Assembly: GCA_947473475.1 (NCBI GenBank)
Contig: CANJBZ010000017.1
Coordinates: 1-64,000, forward strand
Length of the DNA: 64,000 nt
Direction: 5' to 3'
From: Alphaproteobacteria bacterium
GTDB taxonomy: Bacteria; Pseudomonadota; Alphaproteobacteria; Micropepsales; Micropepsaceae
The position numbers and the translations under genes are program-made. This document shows, one piece after another, positions 727 through 18,778 of this stretch (position 1 is its first letter; every line of letters starts with the position of its first letter). The notes beneath the pieces are model-generated. The model saw only the letters and a list, made by a program, of their open reading frames with translations, was not told the DNA's origin and searched no databases.

Positions 727-1347
727 ATGAAGCTTTTCGTCGGACTCGCGGCGGCCGCAGCGGCCACCGCAATGATCGGCGCTGCTGTGGCGGCCGAAAG
801 CGACTTCGTCATTCGTGGCGACGCGGCCAAGCAGCTCCTGGAACAGAACTCGATCAATCTCGCGACGGCCGAGAAAATCGCCAAGGCCTGCGTCGACGAA
901 GCGGTGAAGGAAAACGTCGGCGTCTCCATCGCGATCTACGACCAATATGGCGAGCCGGTTTACATGTACCGCATGGATGGACAGCCGCGGGTCGCCATCG
1001 AAACCGCGATCATGAAGGCGAAGACGACCCTCAACACGCGTCAATCCAGCAAAGTGGTGATGAACGCGGTGCGCAGTGGCAACCAGAGCGAAGCGCGTGC
1101 AATTTCCTTCGGCAATTTCGCCAATTCGGGCGCGCTGCCGATCACCATCAACGGCAACCAGTTCATCGGCGCCATTGGCGTCGGCGGCTCGGCGCCGCGC
1201 GTACCGGCATGGAGCGATGAAATCTGCGCCTGGCGCGCACTGACCAAAGTGATGGGCCAGCAGCCCGCGCTGCTTCCCGACGTTCCGGCTGCGGCCGCCG
1301 CCGGCGGTGGCAATGGCCCGCGCGGCAACGGCGCCCCGAACCGTTAA
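727..1347 (+). CDS. Exported HbpS/GlcG (DUF336) protein, paralogue 1
   Basis: First of five consecutive paralogues. It has 206 residues: an N-terminal signal peptide (about residues 1-23, ending AAVAA), then a GlcG/HbpS (DUF336) domain. The start is the ATG at 727, preceded by GGAGGG at 712-717; a longer in-frame start at 682 would hide the signal peptide. Family hallmarks are the NLATAEKIAKAC helix, IGAIGVGGSAPR, and the C-terminal EICAWRAL...LLPD. Two cysteines (55 and 167) are conserved in all five copies and could form a periplasmic disulfide. Known members (HbpS, GlcG, the PduO C-domain) bind haem or cobalamin or have no known role, so only a ligand-binding periplasmic role is inferred. 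The protein ends in a Gly/Pro/Asn-rich tail, GNGAPNR. Confidence 0.88.
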   Translation: MKLFVGLAAAAAATAMIGAAVAAESDFVIRGDAAKQLLEQNSINLATAEKIAKACVDEAVKENVGVSIAIYDQYGEPVYMYRMDGQPRVAIETAIMKAKTTLNTRQSSKVVMNAVRSGNQSEARAISFGNFANSGALPITINGNQFIGAIGVGGSAPRVPAWSDEICAWRALTKVMGQQPALLPDVPAAAAAGGGNGPRGNGAPNR

Positions 1348-1378
1348 GCGATAGCGAACAGCGAATAGGAGACATCAC

Positions 1379-2002
1379 ATGAAAAATTATTCTGGATTTG
1401 CGATCGCTGCGGCTGCTACCGCGATGATCGGTGCAGCCTTCGCGGCTGAAAGCGACAAGTTTGTGCAGCGCGGCGATGCCGCCAAGCGCATCATGGAGCA
1501 GAACACCATCAACATCGCGACCGCCGAAGCGATCGCCAAAGCCTGCATCGACGAAGCGACGAAGGAAGGCGTGAAGGTCAGCATCGTGGTGATGGATCAG
1601 TTCGGTGAACCTGTTTACTTCACCCGCATGGACGGCCAGGGCAAGGCCAACGTCGATACCTCGTTCATGAAAGCCAAGACCGCGCTGAATATGCGCGCGC
1701 CCAGCAAGACGGTGATGAACCAGGTGCTGCAAGGCCGCTCTTCCGAGCTGCGTCAGTATTCTTTCGGCAACTTTGCCAATTCCGGCGGCCTGCCGATCAT
1801 CGTCAACGGCAACCAGCTGATCGGCGCCATCGGCGTCGGCGGCTCGGCGCCGCGCGTGCCGGTGTGGAGCGATGAAATCTGCGCCTGGCGCGCGCTGACC
1901 AAAGTCATGGGTCCGCAACCGCCGCTGCTGCCCGATGTGCAGCGCAGCGCGGAATCCGGCGGCGGCGCCGGCCCGCGCAACAACGGTGCGCCGAACCAGT
2001 AA
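1379..2002 (+). CDS. Exported HbpS/GlcG (DUF336) protein, paralogue 2
   Basis: A 207-residue close paralogue of the preceding gene, 31 bases downstream and probably co-transcribed with it. It has a signal peptide (residues 1-23), the DUF336 domain with INIATAEAIAKAC and IGAIGVGGSAPR, and the paired cysteines 56 and 168. The low-complexity tail ends NNGAPNQ, nearly the same as copies 1 and 4. ATG 1379 follows AGGAGA at 1367-1372. A strong hairpin with a T-run directly after the stop marks the end of the transcript holding copies 1 and 2. Function is unknown beyond a probable periplasmic ligand-binding role. Confidence 0.88.
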   Translation: MKNYSGFAIAAAATAMIGAAFAAESDKFVQRGDAAKRIMEQNTINIATAEAIAKACIDEATKEGVKVSIVVMDQFGEPVYFTRMDGQGKANVDTSFMKAKTALNMRAPSKTVMNQVLQGRSSELRQYSFGNFANSGGLPIIVNGNQLIGAIGVGGSAPRVPVWSDEICAWRALTKVMGPQPPLLPDVQRSAESGGGAGPRNNGAPNQ

Positions 2003-2020
2003 TCTTCGGTATTTGATGGG

Positions 2021-2049
2021 AAAAAGGCCCCTTAGCCGGGGCCTTTTTC
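2021..2049 (+). terminator. Intrinsic terminator after HbpS paralogue 2
   Basis: Perfect 11-bp stem AAAAAGGCCCC (2021-2031) / GGGGCCTTTTT (2038-2048) with a 6-base loop, the T-run forming the end of the stem. It lies 19 bases after the stop codon and separates copies 1-2 from copy 3. Confidence 0.85.
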
Positions 2050-2133
2050 TTGTTCGGGTTGTGCAAACCCCCTGCAAAATGTCAAAATGTTCATCAGATG
2101 CTGAAGCCAGCATCGCAACCGGAGGGAATCCAC

Positions 2134-2760
2134 ATGAAGCTTCATCTCGCGCTGTTGGCTGGCATTGCAGCCACGGCTATCGCCGGGTCGGCGTTCGGCG
2201 CCGCCTCGATCAACGACGTCGTCCAAAAGGGCGACTCCGCCAAAAAAGTCATGGAAAAGAACCAGATCAACCTGGCGACCGCCAAGGCGATCGGCGACCA
2301 CTGCCTGAACGAAGCCGCTGCCAAGGGCATGGGCGTCAGCGTCGTCATCATCGACCAGTTTGGCGTCATCACCTATTACGTCCGCGGCGACGGCCAGGGC
2401 AAAACCAACACGGAATCCGCTCTGTGGAAGGCCCGCACGACGCTGAACACGCGCGCCGCCAGCAAGGCACAGATGAACGCGGTTCGCACCGGCGCCGTCT
2501 CCGAAGCCCGCGTCACCTGGCAGGGCAATTTCGCCAATGCCGGCGCGCTTCCGATCGTCGTTGACGGTCAGTTCCTCGGCGCCATCGGCGTCGGCGGTAT
2601 GGCCGCGACTCCCCCGACCTGGAGCGACGAAATCTGCGGCTACAACGCGCTCGTGGCCGTGCTCGGCCCGCAGCCCGCGCTGCTGCCCGACATGCCGAAC
2701 CCCTACGCCATCAGCAATGCTGGCGGCGCCGGCGCACGTCCGCCCGCAGCTCCGCGCTAA
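2134..2760 (+). CDS. Exported HbpS/GlcG (DUF336) protein, paralogue 3
   Basis: A 208-residue third copy. The start is ATG 2134, chosen because GGAGGGA at 2120-2126 precedes it and the signal peptide (MKLHLALLAG...FGA, residues 1-23) then sits at the N terminus. The DUF336 core carries INLATAKAIGDHC, IGAIGVGG and SDEICGYNAL, with conserved cysteines 57 and 168. The tail differs (ends ARPPAAPR). It is flanked by a terminator on each side, so it appears to be transcribed alone. Copies 1-3 resemble each other more than they resemble copies 4-5. Confidence 0.87.
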   Translation: MKLHLALLAGIAATAIAGSAFGAASINDVVQKGDSAKKVMEKNQINLATAKAIGDHCLNEAAAKGMGVSVVIIDQFGVITYYVRGDGQGKTNTESALWKARTTLNTRAASKAQMNAVRTGAVSEARVTWQGNFANAGALPIVVDGQFLGAIGVGGMAATPPTWSDEICGYNALVAVLGPQPALLPDMPNPYAISNAGGAGARPPAAPR

Positions 2761-2783
2761 GCAGAGCATCGCTTGCAACATCG

Positions 2784-2820
2784 GGCCTCGCGCAAGCCTT
2801 GCGCGGGGCCTTTTGTTTGT
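2784..2820 (+). terminator. Intrinsic terminator after HbpS paralogue 3
   Basis: 12-bp stem GGCCTCGCGCAA (2784-2795) / TTGCGCGGGGCC (2799-2810) with one T-G wobble, followed by TTTTGTTTGT. It lies 24 bases after the stop. Confidence 0.8.
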
Positions 2821-2899
2821 CTGGTCTTTTGTTTCTCTGGCCTCCCGTGGCATGTTCCCGCCCAAGATGCGGGAGCATCCAGCCATCAGGGAGGATTTC

Positions 2900-3559
2900 A
2901 TGAAATTCGCAAGCCTAATGGGCGCAGCCGCCGTGCTCGCCGTTTCCGGCGCTTATGCCGCCACCAGCTATGACGGCAACGGTCAGGTGCCGCAGCAATT
3001 TGTGCTGTCCGGCAAAGCGGCCGACAGACTGCACGACCATATTTCCATCAATCTCGCCACCGCCGAAAAGCTCGCCGCGGCGTGCGAAGCCATCGCCAAA
3101 AAGAACAACAGCCAGGTCGTGGTCGTCGTGCTCGACCCGCAAGGCTTGCCGGTTCTGCTCCGCCGCATGGATGGCGAGGGCCATGTCCAGATCAACGCGA
3201 CCCAGCAGAAGGCGCTCACGGCGCTCCGCACGCGCGCGCCCAGCCGTGTGCTGAACAACCGCAACGTGGAAGATCCCTTCACCAACCAGAACATGTCCGG
3301 CTACGGCCTGACGACGCAGGAAGGCGGCCTTCCCATCATCGTCAACGGCCAGCTTATCGGCGCCATCGGCGTCGGCGGCATTCCGCCGGTCGAGCGCAAC
3401 GCCACCTACGGCGAAGAGATGTGCGCCCGCGACGCGCTGGAAGCCGTAATCGGCCCGCAGCCCGCGCTGCTCCCCGATCTGGCAGCCGAGCGGCGCACGC
3501 GCCCGCAAGGTGCAGGCGGCGGCGCTGGCCGCGCCGGCAACGGTGCCCCGAACCGGTGA
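2900..3559 (+). CDS. Exported HbpS/GlcG (DUF336) protein, paralogue 4
   Basis: A 219-residue fourth copy. ATG 2900 follows GGGAGGA at 2888-2894; the signal peptide is about residues 1-20 (ends GAYA). It has an insertion after the signal (SYDGNGQVPQQFVLS) and the motif LHDHISINLATAEKLAAAC, shared with copy 5 and absent from copies 1-3, so copies 4 and 5 form a second subfamily whose paired His residues (DH and HD around residue 45-47) are candidate metal or haem ligands. Conserved cysteines are at 62 and 175. The C-terminal tail again ends GNGAPNR. Confidence 0.87.
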   Translation: MKFASLMGAAAVLAVSGAYAATSYDGNGQVPQQFVLSGKAADRLHDHISINLATAEKLAAACEAIAKKNNSQVVVVVLDPQGLPVLLRRMDGEGHVQINATQQKALTALRTRAPSRVLNNRNVEDPFTNQNMSGYGLTTQEGGLPIIVNGQLIGAIGVGGIPPVERNATYGEEMCARDALEAVIGPQPALLPDLAAERRTRPQGAGGGAGRAGNGAPNR

Positions 3560-3566
3560 GAACAAG

Positions 3567-3653
3567 GTGAGTAGTGAGTGGGGAGTAGTGTGTCGGGTAA
3601 CAATCCCGCCGCGGCTTCCCTTCACTACTCACGATTCACCACTCACTCCTCAC
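3567..3653. repeat. Imperfect intergenic palindrome (TGAGTAGTGAG type)
   Basis: Arms 3567-3581 and 3639-3653 are complementary with one mismatch and are built from GTGAGTAGTGAGT-like repeats. The element lies between HbpS copies 4 and 5. A related, less perfect palindrome follows copy 5 at 4346-4425. It could form a large hairpin in the transcript, but no T-run follows, so it is not called a terminator. Confidence 0.65.
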
Positions 3654-3666
3654 CCATGAGAGATCC

Positions 3667-4335
3667 ATGCGCGACAGAAAATTCGTTATCGGCTTGATGG
3701 CCGGACTTGCCGGCGGCGGGCTGCTCGCCGTGGCCGGTGCAACCATTGCCGCCGAGCGGCACCCCGTTTTCCAATTCGGGCCCGTGCCGCCGCAATTCGT
3801 CATAAGCCCGGAAGACGGCGCCCGCAGTCACGACCACATTTCCATCAAGGCTGAAGTCGCCGAGCGGCTATCCCACGTCTGCGAAGCCGCGGCCAAAGCC
3901 CATGGCGGTTCGGCGACCATCGTCATCCTGGATCCGTTCGGCATGATCATTCACGAACACCGGATGGACGGTCAGACCTACATCAATCAGAAGGCCGCCG
4001 AAAACAAAGCCCGGACCGCGCTGCTGACGCGCGAGCCCTCGCACGTGCTGACCAACCGTGCGTTCGACGATGTGTCGACGCTGATCCGCATGGATCAGTT
4101 CGGCCTGAACGTGCAGGAAGGCGGCCTTCCCATCATCGTCGGTGACCAGATGATCGGCGCGATCGGTGTCGGCGGCGGCGCCGGCGGCGCATCCTATGGC
4201 GAAGAACGCTGCGCGCACGACGCCTTGACCGAAGTGTTCGGACCGCAGCCTCCGTTGCTCCCGCCGCCCGCCGGCGGACGCACCAATGGCGGCGGCTTCC
4301 CGCAACGCGCGGCACCGCCAGCCGCCGGCCGATGA
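3667..4335 (+). CDS. Exported HbpS/GlcG (DUF336) protein, paralogue 5
   Basis: A 222-residue fifth copy. The N terminus MRDRKFVIGLMAGLAGGG is a signal peptide or signal anchor (residues 1-29). The domain carries PPQFVISPEDGARSHDHISI, matching copy 4, then IGAIGVGGGAGG and a C-terminal GEERCAHDAL...LLPPPAGG. Conserved cysteines are at 72 and 182. Its Pro/Gly-rich tail ends APPAAGR, unlike the NGAPNR ending of copies 1, 2 and 4. The role is unknown; by family it is a periplasmic small-ligand (haem or corrinoid) binder. Confidence 0.86.
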   Translation: MRDRKFVIGLMAGLAGGGLLAVAGATIAAERHPVFQFGPVPPQFVISPEDGARSHDHISIKAEVAERLSHVCEAAAKAHGGSATIVILDPFGMIIHEHRMDGQTYINQKAAENKARTALLTREPSHVLTNRAFDDVSTLIRMDQFGLNVQEGGLPIIVGDQMIGAIGVGGGAGGASYGEERCAHDALTEVFGPQPPLLPPPAGGRTNGGGFPQRAAPPAAGR

Positions 4336-4345
4336 GATAACGGAT

Positions 4346-4425
4346 GAGTCGTGAGTAGGGTATCGTGATTAAAGAGCCGGCGCGTGGCGGCTGCTATTCA
4401 CCACCTACTACTCACCACTCACCTT
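4346..4425. repeat. Second TGAGTAGTGAG-type palindrome
   Basis: GTGAGTAGGG at 4351-4360 is partly complementary to the CCTACTACTCACCACTCAC stretch about 45 bases further on. It is a degenerate relative of the element at 3567-3653 and sits between HbpS copy 5 and the glyoxalase gene. Confidence 0.5.
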
Positions 4426-4455
4426 TCCCCACATCACCACACCCGGAGCGATCTC

Positions 4456-4896
4456 GTGCAATACCTTCACACCATGGTTCGCGTTGCCGACCTTGAAAAG
4501 AGCCTCGCCTTCTATTGCGGGCTGCTGGGGCTGAAAGAAATCAGCCGCCAGGAAAGCGAGAAGGGACGCTTCACGCTCGTGTTCCTTGCTGCGCCGGGCG
4601 ATGAAGATCTGGCCCATGAGCGCAAGGGACCGATGGTCGAGCTGACCTACAATTGGGACCCGGAGGTCTACACGGGCGGGCGCAATTTCGGTCACCTCGC
4701 CTATCGGGTCGATGACATCTATGCGGCCTGTAAGAAATTCATGGACGGCGGCGTGACCATCAACCGGCCGCCGCGTGACGGCCACATGGCGTTCATCCGC
4801 TCGCCGGACGGTATCTCCATAGAACTGCTCCAACGCGGCCCCGCTCTACCGCCGCAAGAGCCCTGGACCTCCATGCCCAACACCGGCGCCTGGTAG
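4456..4896 (+). CDS. gloA: Lactoylglutathione lyase (glyoxalase I)
   Basis: A 146-residue enzyme that converts the methylglyoxal-glutathione hemithioacetal to S-lactoylglutathione in the cytoplasm. All four metal ligands are present: His5 (LHTMVRV), Glu62 (MVELTYNW), His80 (FGHLAYRV) and Glu123 (ISIELLQ). These positions closely match the Ni-type E. coli enzyme. The start is GTG 4456, preceded by CGGAG at 4443-4447. An upstream in-frame ATG would add 24 residues unlike the family, ahead of the canonical MxxLHTM beginning. The gene is 10 bases upstream of a cupin gene, so the two are probably co-transcribed. Confidence 0.93.
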
Positions 4897-4906
4897 CCCC
4901 TCACAC

Positions 4907-5470
4907 ATGCCGCTCCATCAAGGCCGACGAATTGTTACCGGGCACGACGAGCAAGGCCGCTCCGTCCTCATTGAGGATGCGCCGCCAGAAAATGTCGTGC
5001 CAAACCCGTCCGATCCGGATCGCGGCCATATAAATTTCTGGCGCACGGACGGTGTACCAGCGAGCAATGCCGAGTTCGTCGATCCCATGGCCGGGCCGCC
5101 CTGCCCGCTGCCGCCGCCCCAGGGCGGCATCATGTTCCGCTACTTTCAGATCGCACCGGAAAAGAACGAAGCCGGCCTCTCTAAGGAAGAACGCGACCGC
5201 CGCATGGCGCGCATGTTTGAAGCGGCGGGCGCCGGCCACGCGCGGCTGGCGATGAACCGCCACCCCTCCATGCACCGCACCGAATCGGTCGACTACATCA
5301 TCCTGCTCAAAGGCGAGGTCACCTGCCTGCTGGACATCGGCGAAGTGCAAATGAAGCCCTTCGACGTGCTGATCCAGCGCGGTACCAACCACGGCTGGGT
5401 CAACCACGGCGACGAACCCGCCCTGCTGGTCGCCGTCCTCGTCGACGCAACGCCCCTCCCGCGCGGCTAA
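4907..5470 (+). CDS. Cupin-domain protein
   Basis: A 187-residue protein with a C-terminal cupin_2 domain. Cupin motif 1 is visible as PSMHRTESVDYIILLKGE (about residues 119-136) and motif 2 as GTNHGWVNHG (about 157-166), giving plausible His and Glu metal ligands, although motif 1 has a single His where many cupins have HxH. The N-terminal 60 residues (GHDEQGRSVL..., INFWRTDG) are typical of a cupin subfamily seen beside aromatic-acid catabolic genes. No reaction can be assigned. It begins 10 bases after gloA. Confidence 0.8.
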   Translation: MPLHQGRRIVTGHDEQGRSVLIEDAPPENVVPNPSDPDRGHINFWRTDGVPASNAEFVDPMAGPPCPLPPPQGGIMFRYFQIAPEKNEAGLSKEERDRRMARMFEAAGAGHARLAMNRHPSMHRTESVDYIILLKGEVTCLLDIGEVQMKPFDVLIQRGTNHGWVNHGDEPALLVAVLVDATPLPRG

Positions 5471-15595: not shown

Positions 15596-17869
<2,274 letters not shown>

Positions 17870-18778
17870 ATGGACAGACTGACCCTCCGCCAGCTTCGCT
17901 ATTTCGACGCCCTCACCCGGTACGGCCATTTCGGGCGAGCCGCCGACGCCTGCGCCGTCACGCAACCAGCATTGTCCATGCAGATCAAAGAGTTGGAGGA
18001 TACGCTGGGCGTGCCGCTGATCGACCGCAGCGCGCGTCAGGTCCGCCTCACCGAGTTCGGCGAGGAAGCCGCCGCCAGCGTGCGGGACATTCTGCGGGCG
18101 GTGGATGAGTTGAGCGGGTTGGCGCGGGCGTCCCACGAGCAGCTCTCCGGGCGGTTTCGCATCGGCATGATTCCGACCATTGCGCCGTATCTGTTGCCCG
18201 CATTCATCGGCGATCTAGCGCGGGCCTATCCCCAAGTAGATATGAACGTCCGCGAGGCGATCACCCCCAAGCTTATCCAGGAGCTGTCAGAGGGGCGGCT
18301 GGACGCGGCCATTGTCGCGCTTCCGGTGTCCGAAACCTCGCTGACCGAGGTGGCGCTGTTCAGAGAGAATTTCGTGTTCGTGCGGCCCGCGGGCGAGGAA
18401 CGCGCGCCCGTGCCCGACGCTCAAGCTCTGCGCGAGATGAAGCTGCTTCTGTTGGAAGAAGGCCACTGCTTCCGCGATCAGGCGCTTGCCTTCTGCAACA
18501 TGCGGGCATTGGTCCCGCGCAACGCGCTGGATGCGAACTCGTTGTCGACGCTGGTTCAGATGGTGGGCGCGGGCTTGGGCGTAACGCTGATCCCGGATAT
18601 GGCGGTGCCGTTGGAAACGCGCGCCGCGTCGGTGTGCGTGTCGCGTTTTGCCGATCCGCAACCCTCTCGCACCATCGGCATGGTCTGGCGCAAAGCCAGC
18701 CCCTTGGCGCGCCCACTGCTGCAAATCTGCGACGTACTTCGCCAATCCGCCGCCAAACTGCACGGCCAGCACGCCTAA
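17870..18778 (+). CDS. oxyR: Peroxide-sensing LysR-type regulator OxyR
   Basis: A 302-residue LysR-family regulator with an N-terminal winged helix (LRQLRYFDALTRYGHFGRAA...) and a C-terminal sensing domain. The two redox cysteines are present: Cys200 and Cys209 in EEGHCFRDQALAFCNM, matching Cys199/Cys208 of E. coli OxyR. Disulfide formation on peroxide exposure would activate katG, which is divergently transcribed next to it. ATG 17870 fits the family start MxxLTLRQLRYF. Confidence 0.95.
   Translation: MDRLTLRQLRYFDALTRYGHFGRAADACAVTQPALSMQIKELEDTLGVPLIDRSARQVRLTEFGEEAAASVRDILRAVDELSGLARASHEQLSGRFRIGMIPTIAPYLLPAFIGDLARAYPQVDMNVREAITPKLIQELSEGRLDAAIVALPVSETSLTEVALFRENFVFVRPAGEERAPVPDAQALREMKLLLLEEGHCFRDQALAFCNMRALVPRNALDANSLSTLVQMVGAGLGVTLIPDMAVPLETRAASVCVSRFADPQPSRTIGMVWRKASPLARPLLQICDVLRQSAAKLHGQHA

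Follow-up and report, generated by a model that had tools for sequence, protein, structure and literature searches.

A 64,000-nucleotide stretch of contig CANJBZ010000017.1 (assembly GCA_947473475.1, an alphaproteobacterium of the family Micropepsaceae), referred to here as the window, carries five tandem genes for DUF336 (HbpS-like) proteins that are predicted to be exported. This array is one part of a DUF336 expansion that is a trait of the genus, because the genus genomes hold 6-23 DUF336 domains each and no more than six occur in any of 191 other class genomes. Most of the paralogues predate the species and are kept by purifying selection, since they have orthologues in congeners and the ratio of nonsynonymous to synonymous substitution rates (dN/dS, Nei-Gojobori estimate) is 0.13-0.29 in six orthologue comparisons. 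What might so many related proteins bind? We tentatively suggest that the array belongs to a genus-wide expansion of disulfide-braced periplasmic proteins whose ligand is possibly a small carbonyl or carboxylate compound. Few functions have been tested in the widespread DUF336 family, and a genus this rich in copies makes it possible to compare ligand, export and cysteine chemistry across naturally occurring paralogues.

Five tandem genes within a genus-wide expansion

All five open reading frames (copies 1-5; Table 1) pass the curated Pfam cut-off of 25 bits for PF03928, at 62.5-86.5 bits, and all five begin with a signal-like, hydrophobic N-terminus, from which export is predicted. An earlier, sequence-only reading of the window had described five head-to-tail DUF336 genes with such N-termini, and both the reading frames and the profile scores agree with it. 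Each copy contains exactly two cysteines, and the placement then proposed, one in the first helix and one in a C-terminal E-x-C-A/G motif, holds throughout, with the motif widened to D/E-x-C-A/G to cover all five copies. The extra HDHISI motif assigned to copies 4 and 5 proved to be a same-length substitution without any insertion: the aligned segment is LEQNSI, MEQNTI or MEKNQI in copies 1-3, NLATA follows it in copies 1, 3 and 4, and copy 4 carries both HDHISI and INLATA. The division into two subfamilies, copies 1-3 and copies 4-5, is recovered in our tree as two clades, one of 15 rows and one of 12, both with support 96.

The host genome holds 21 PF03928 domains and six congeners hold 13, 13, 23, 6, 10 and 23, several of the seven genus genomes in the comparison (G000-G006) being incomplete. 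Beyond the genus the domain is far scarcer: 24 of 30 other genomes of the bacterial family have none and the remaining six have one to three, and among 192 class genomes (at least 90% complete) 110 have none and 81 besides the host have one to six, in a search that scored every candidate of the genomes it listed and all 21 of the host. The family had been said to occur normally as a single copy, which is true of 34 of these 81 genomes but not of the other 47, which hold two to six domains. Among 396 phylum genomes none besides the host exceeds five, counting the best 10 candidates per genome, a search in which the host itself scored 10 of its 21. No other genome of the class and phylum samples, which were compared by domain counts per genome rather than by gene-by-gene array checks, showed copy numbers of this order, and the array has kept the unusual standing first claimed for it. 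A literature search, which mostly left subscription papers outside its reach, found no earlier account of such a DUF336 expansion or of the disulfide considered below.

The tree comprises 141 domains (140 different), 107 of them from the genus, 33 from other genera and one from L022, a contig of a metagenome-assembled genome; G004 contributes four of its six matches, fragments in 59- and 74-residue frames having failed the profile and been left out. A 44-domain clade (support 98) unites all window copies, a lineage of two-domain fusions and array members of other species, with 43 domains from six of the seven genus genomes (none from G004) and one from L022. When a profile built from nine clade members was run against 288 other class genomes, nothing exceeded 78 bits among the best 10 candidates per genome, whereas the host's eight clade domains score 141-357 bits, and the clade looks specific to the genus on this sequence comparison. 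Each of copies 2-5 is closer to orthologues in one to four congeners than to the other window paralogues: identities reach 87% for copy 4 and 78% for copy 5 in G001, 82% for copy 2 and 77% for copy 4 in G002, and 78-80% for copy 3 in both. For copy 1, no clean one-to-one orthologue was found among the collected sequences. The orthologues of copies 2-5 and the low dN/dS bear out the notion of a diversified exported battery, which with 21 domains extends far beyond the array. In the lineage of DUF336-DUF336 fusions (L008, L039, L040, L071) both domains are monophyletic (support 99), and the fusion lies inside the array locus of two genomes (G003, G006) and away from it in two more (G000, G002).

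An alternative view is that the expansion reflects amplification of copy number without diversification of ligands, either as a redundant increase in dose or as near-neutral duplicates. Tandem duplicates at several sites (copies 1 and 2; locus L039 of G006) and the wide spread of counts across the genus, with the incompleteness of several genomes in mind, are what such a process would leave. The low dN/dS, paralogue lineages old enough to have orthologues in other species and the predicted terminators that would divide the array into separate expression units nevertheless make us regard it as rather unlikely.

Fold, ligand residues and the cysteine pair

An AlphaFold2 model of copy 2, the single copy modelled, has the alpha-beta fold of HbpS and EfgA. 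Its predicted local distance difference test score is 74.8 overall and no lower than 70 for 139 of 207 residues, and its best solved folds are DUF336 proteins, including EfgA (E 6.5e-11; Z 19.9, root-mean-square deviation 1.7 over 130 residues, 27% identity). EfgA, the formaldehyde sensor of Methylorubrum extorquens (PDB 6bws/6c0z), has this fold and an Arg/Lys/acid pocket in common with the array. In the description of EfgA, the pocket is formed by K57, S114, D121 and possibly R42, S114N is a loss-of-function allele and the protein is without an export signal of the HbpS type (PMC8153426). The positions of R42, K57 and D121 read R, K and D/E in all five copies. At the S114 position Gly stands in all five copies and, within the 44-row clade, in each of the 43 rows readable there; the clade is thereby marked by GVGG instead of GVSG. 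The 97 rows outside the clade have Ser in 55 cases and Gly in 28. EfgA thus differs from the array proteins, with their signal-like N-termini, cysteine pair and Gly, and its effect on growth is exerted from inside the cell. The fold is also that of DUF336 proteins of the GlcG/OrfY/NahX type (PDB 2a2l and 9jth, Z 18.9 and 18.5), which lie in known catabolic clusters, whereas the array does not.

The proteins might instead be periplasmic scavengers of haem or iron, or redox sensors, that resemble HbpS and either counter oxidative stress or signal it. The family name suggests as much, as do two sets of structures: HbpS of Streptomyces reticuli (PDB 3fpv/3fpw/4bmw), a secreted haem- and iron-binding partner of SenS-SenR, is like the array in fold (Z 19.0) and export, and PduOC of Salmonella (PDB 5cx7), a bis-His haem domain, is like it in fold (Z 18.6). 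HbpS binds iron through EXXE and haem through T113 (PMC3754957), and the haem ligand of PduOC is His18 (PMC4923194). Not one of the five copies has EXXE, the T113 position reads N/N/N/L/L, and the His18 position (profile column 50, chain residue 18) carries E or K and never His; copies 1 and 2 are devoid of histidine and copy 3 has one beyond the signal sequence. Because all three characterised determinants are missing and two copies have no histidine, a haem protein of the characterised types is unlikely. The case for haem and for a corrinoid, both among the ligands first proposed for the array, is accordingly weakened, haem is disfavoured as a default, and the histidine-free copies argue against automatic "haem-binding" labels.

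The array differs from HbpS further in its cysteine pair and in having no recognised SenS-SenR system nearby: neither this nor any other sensor kinase was noticed by eye among the genes called in the first 20 kb of the window, on a contig that starts at window base 1 and with no family search run. From PduOC, which is part of a cobalamin adenosyltransferase, the array proteins differ in standing alone, in being exported and in the residue at the haem-ligand position. Translations read by eye point to possible divergent catalase-peroxidase (KatG) and OxyR-like LysR genes 11 kb downstream (window 15596-18778), a pair that would suit a role in oxidative stress. All told, we consider a function in haem, iron or redox sensing unlikely.

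The two cysteines may be joined. In the copy 2 model Cys56 lies in helix 46-62, the first core helix, and Cys168 in the last helix, 165-177. Weak matches of the model to beta-lactamases (e.g. 1yt4, Z 6.0) have an aligned range that spans the first to the last helix; these two helices pack against each other in beta-lactamases, a likeness that does no more than suggest the same packing here. Across the 107 genus domains, in counts that ignore relatedness, 88 have both cysteines, 13 neither and 6 one, and the pair is present in 86 of 95 exported domains as against 2 of 12 non-exported ones, both of which are truncated at a contig end. In the remaining 34 domains of the tree (the one from L022 and 33 from other genera), likewise counted without regard to relatedness, it is present in 8 of 16 exported and in 0 of 18 non-exported; 29 extra domains were chosen by similarity to the array profile, a choice that may favour cysteine-bearing ones. 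Export was called by a hydrophobicity rule written for this analysis, an earlier version having overlooked 18 rows that carry the helix-1 cysteine; by eye, the majority of these show a signal-like stretch. The helix-1 cysteine stands at position i or i+4, one helical turn apart, and the register switches only twice on the tree. A disulfide between the two cysteines is likely by this pattern, and would be general to many exported members. The bond proposed in the sequence-only reading therefore survives as a probable one, but not as a feature of the array: the pair, in its two registers, is frequent in exported DUF336 proteins within and beyond the genus, and we discarded it as an array-specific mark. 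It does make a simple test by sequence possible for many exported members of the family.

Glyoxalase I and the possible ligand

Genes around the loci were called with a purpose-written codon-usage script. A glyoxalase I gene directly adjoins a DUF336 gene in G000, G002, G003 and G006, and in G001 one FkbM-methyltransferase gene separates the two. At the glyoxalase loci (1.5 kb flanks) of 15 genomes from other genera of the family and nine further class genomes, blastp with window and G001 proteins finds no DUF336, cupin, exonuclease or FkbM neighbour. Because it is absent at these compared loci outside the genus, the glyoxalase-DUF336 linkage is an innovation of the genus, and one that outlasted reshuffling of the array, a survival that argues for, though it falls short of proving, a joint role in carbonyl stress. 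In three congeners (Table 1), but not in the window, genes for FkbM-type methyltransferases stand next to DUF336 and glyoxalase I or separate the two.

In the carbonyl/carboxylate proposal, each copy would form a small periplasmic oligomer in which the disulfide ties the C-terminal helix, bearing the pocket acid at the position of EfgA D121, to helix 1. The pocket would consist of Arg83, Lys98 and Asp165 (copy 2 numbering) and be widened by the Ser-to-Gly change at position 154, so as to bind a small carbonyl or carboxylate compound and not haem; the copies would diverge in ligand or expression, and glyoxalase I would act in the cytoplasm on the same class of reactive carbonyls. The glyoxalase I neighbour, present in five of the seven genus genomes, weakly supports this guess at the ligand.

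Several observations weigh against the proposal. Glyoxalase is not beside DUF336 in G004, and G005 yields a weak partial match only; the glyoxalase gene is also older than the linkage and may be a bystander. A GFA gene upstream of the array (204-563) was considered as a conserved partner and set aside, as it is not near the G001 array and the G002 contig begins inside the array. The formaldehyde-activating enzyme Fae of tetrahydromethanopterin-linked methylotrophs is absent from all seven genus genomes, for which reason a link to methylotrophy was set aside, and a link to pyrroloquinoline quinone (PQQ) alcohol dehydrogenases was rejected because the counts do not track each other (23 DUF336 domains and one PQQ match in G006). 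In the pocket itself, the array is without the Ser at the very position where S114N costs EfgA its function, and the R42, K57 and D121 positions are common across much of the family and therefore carry little information on the ligand. Co-occurrence of the two cysteines is not significant once corrected for phylogeny (6 changes; median p 0.5).

A bolder version, which we think highly improbable, would make the array part of a carbonyl system built by the genus in its periplasm, with some twenty paralogues, mostly disulfide-locked, each with its own ligand, cysteine redox gating the pocket at the D/E-x-C helix, and glyoxalase I inside. If it were true, the DUF336 battery would sense reactive aldehydes as well as the redox state beyond the cytoplasm.

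The proteins could also serve as carriers of cofactors or intermediates for periplasmic oxidoreductases or hydrolases, such as PQQ dehydrogenases, molybdenum hydroxylases or NHL/SMP-30 propellers. NHL/SMP-30-like propeller genes lie at most three genes from DUF336 in six loci (L027, L029, L063, L073, L086, L099), a molybdenum-hydroxylase-like gene, recognised by eye, lies equally close in two, and at one DUF336 locus a PQQ dehydrogenase and an SGL protein are encoded too. No such enzyme gene stands beside the window array, however, and the disparity of counts in G006 tells against carriers as well, so we hold this role to be quite improbable. Genes for other secreted proteins are likewise found near DUF336 genes elsewhere in the genus. 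Two full-length PQQ dehydrogenase matches (>600 bits) lie at G000:C12:40559-42367 and G000:C1:216037-217884, in a genus without Fae.

Terminators, repeats and feature coordinates

Table 1. Coordinates of the array genes, neighbouring genes and predicted RNA structures (window positions unless a locus is named)
Feature	Position	Strand	Remarks
Copy 1, DUF336 (HbpS-like), 206 aa	727..1347	+	Cys55/Cys167; no His; PF03928 79.1 bits
Copy 2, DUF336, 207 aa	1379..2002	+	Cys56/Cys168; no His; PF03928 86.5 bits
Likely intrinsic terminator after copy 2, hairpin with T-rich tail	2015..2056	+	-25.3 kcal/mol, z -5.3
Copy 3, DUF336, 208 aa	2134..2760	+	Cys57/Cys168; PF03928 62.5 bits
Likely intrinsic terminator after copy 3, hairpin with T-rich tail	2778..2822	+	-26.6 kcal/mol, z -5.3
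Copy 4, DUF336, 219 aa	2900..3559	+	Cys62/Cys175; HDHISINLATA; PF03928 84.5 bits
Long imperfect inverted repeat, gap between copies 4 and 5	3566..3654	+	-43.9 kcal/mol for 3560-3660, z -4.9
Copy 5, DUF336, 222 aa	3667..4335	+	Cys72/Cys182; HDHISIKAEVA; PF03928 72.5 bits
Glyoxalase I-like VOC protein	4456..4896	+	TIGR00068 115.7 bits, just below the cut-off of 120
Cupin-domain protein beside glyoxalase	4907..5470	+	PF07883; also adjoins glyoxalase in G002, but lies one gene farther off in G001
FkbM-type methyltransferase loci	L041:6113-9796, L039:9394-10815, L040:8033-9472

Terminators had been placed after copies 2 and 3, and by folding energy strong T-tailed hairpins are indeed found at both places, while the 31-base gap between copies 1 and 2 contains no hairpin. 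A terminator consensus scan lists the copy 3 hairpin but not the copy 2 hairpin; its total of 6 terminator-like sites compares with 5.8 in shuffled sequence. The inverted repeat that separates copies 4 and 5 contains an 11-base core, which is absent from the other fetched loci except those that overlap the window repeat. The repeat is rich in GTGAGTAG/CTACTCAC and forms a strong hairpin, and a related stretch lies behind copy 5, at 4336-4429.

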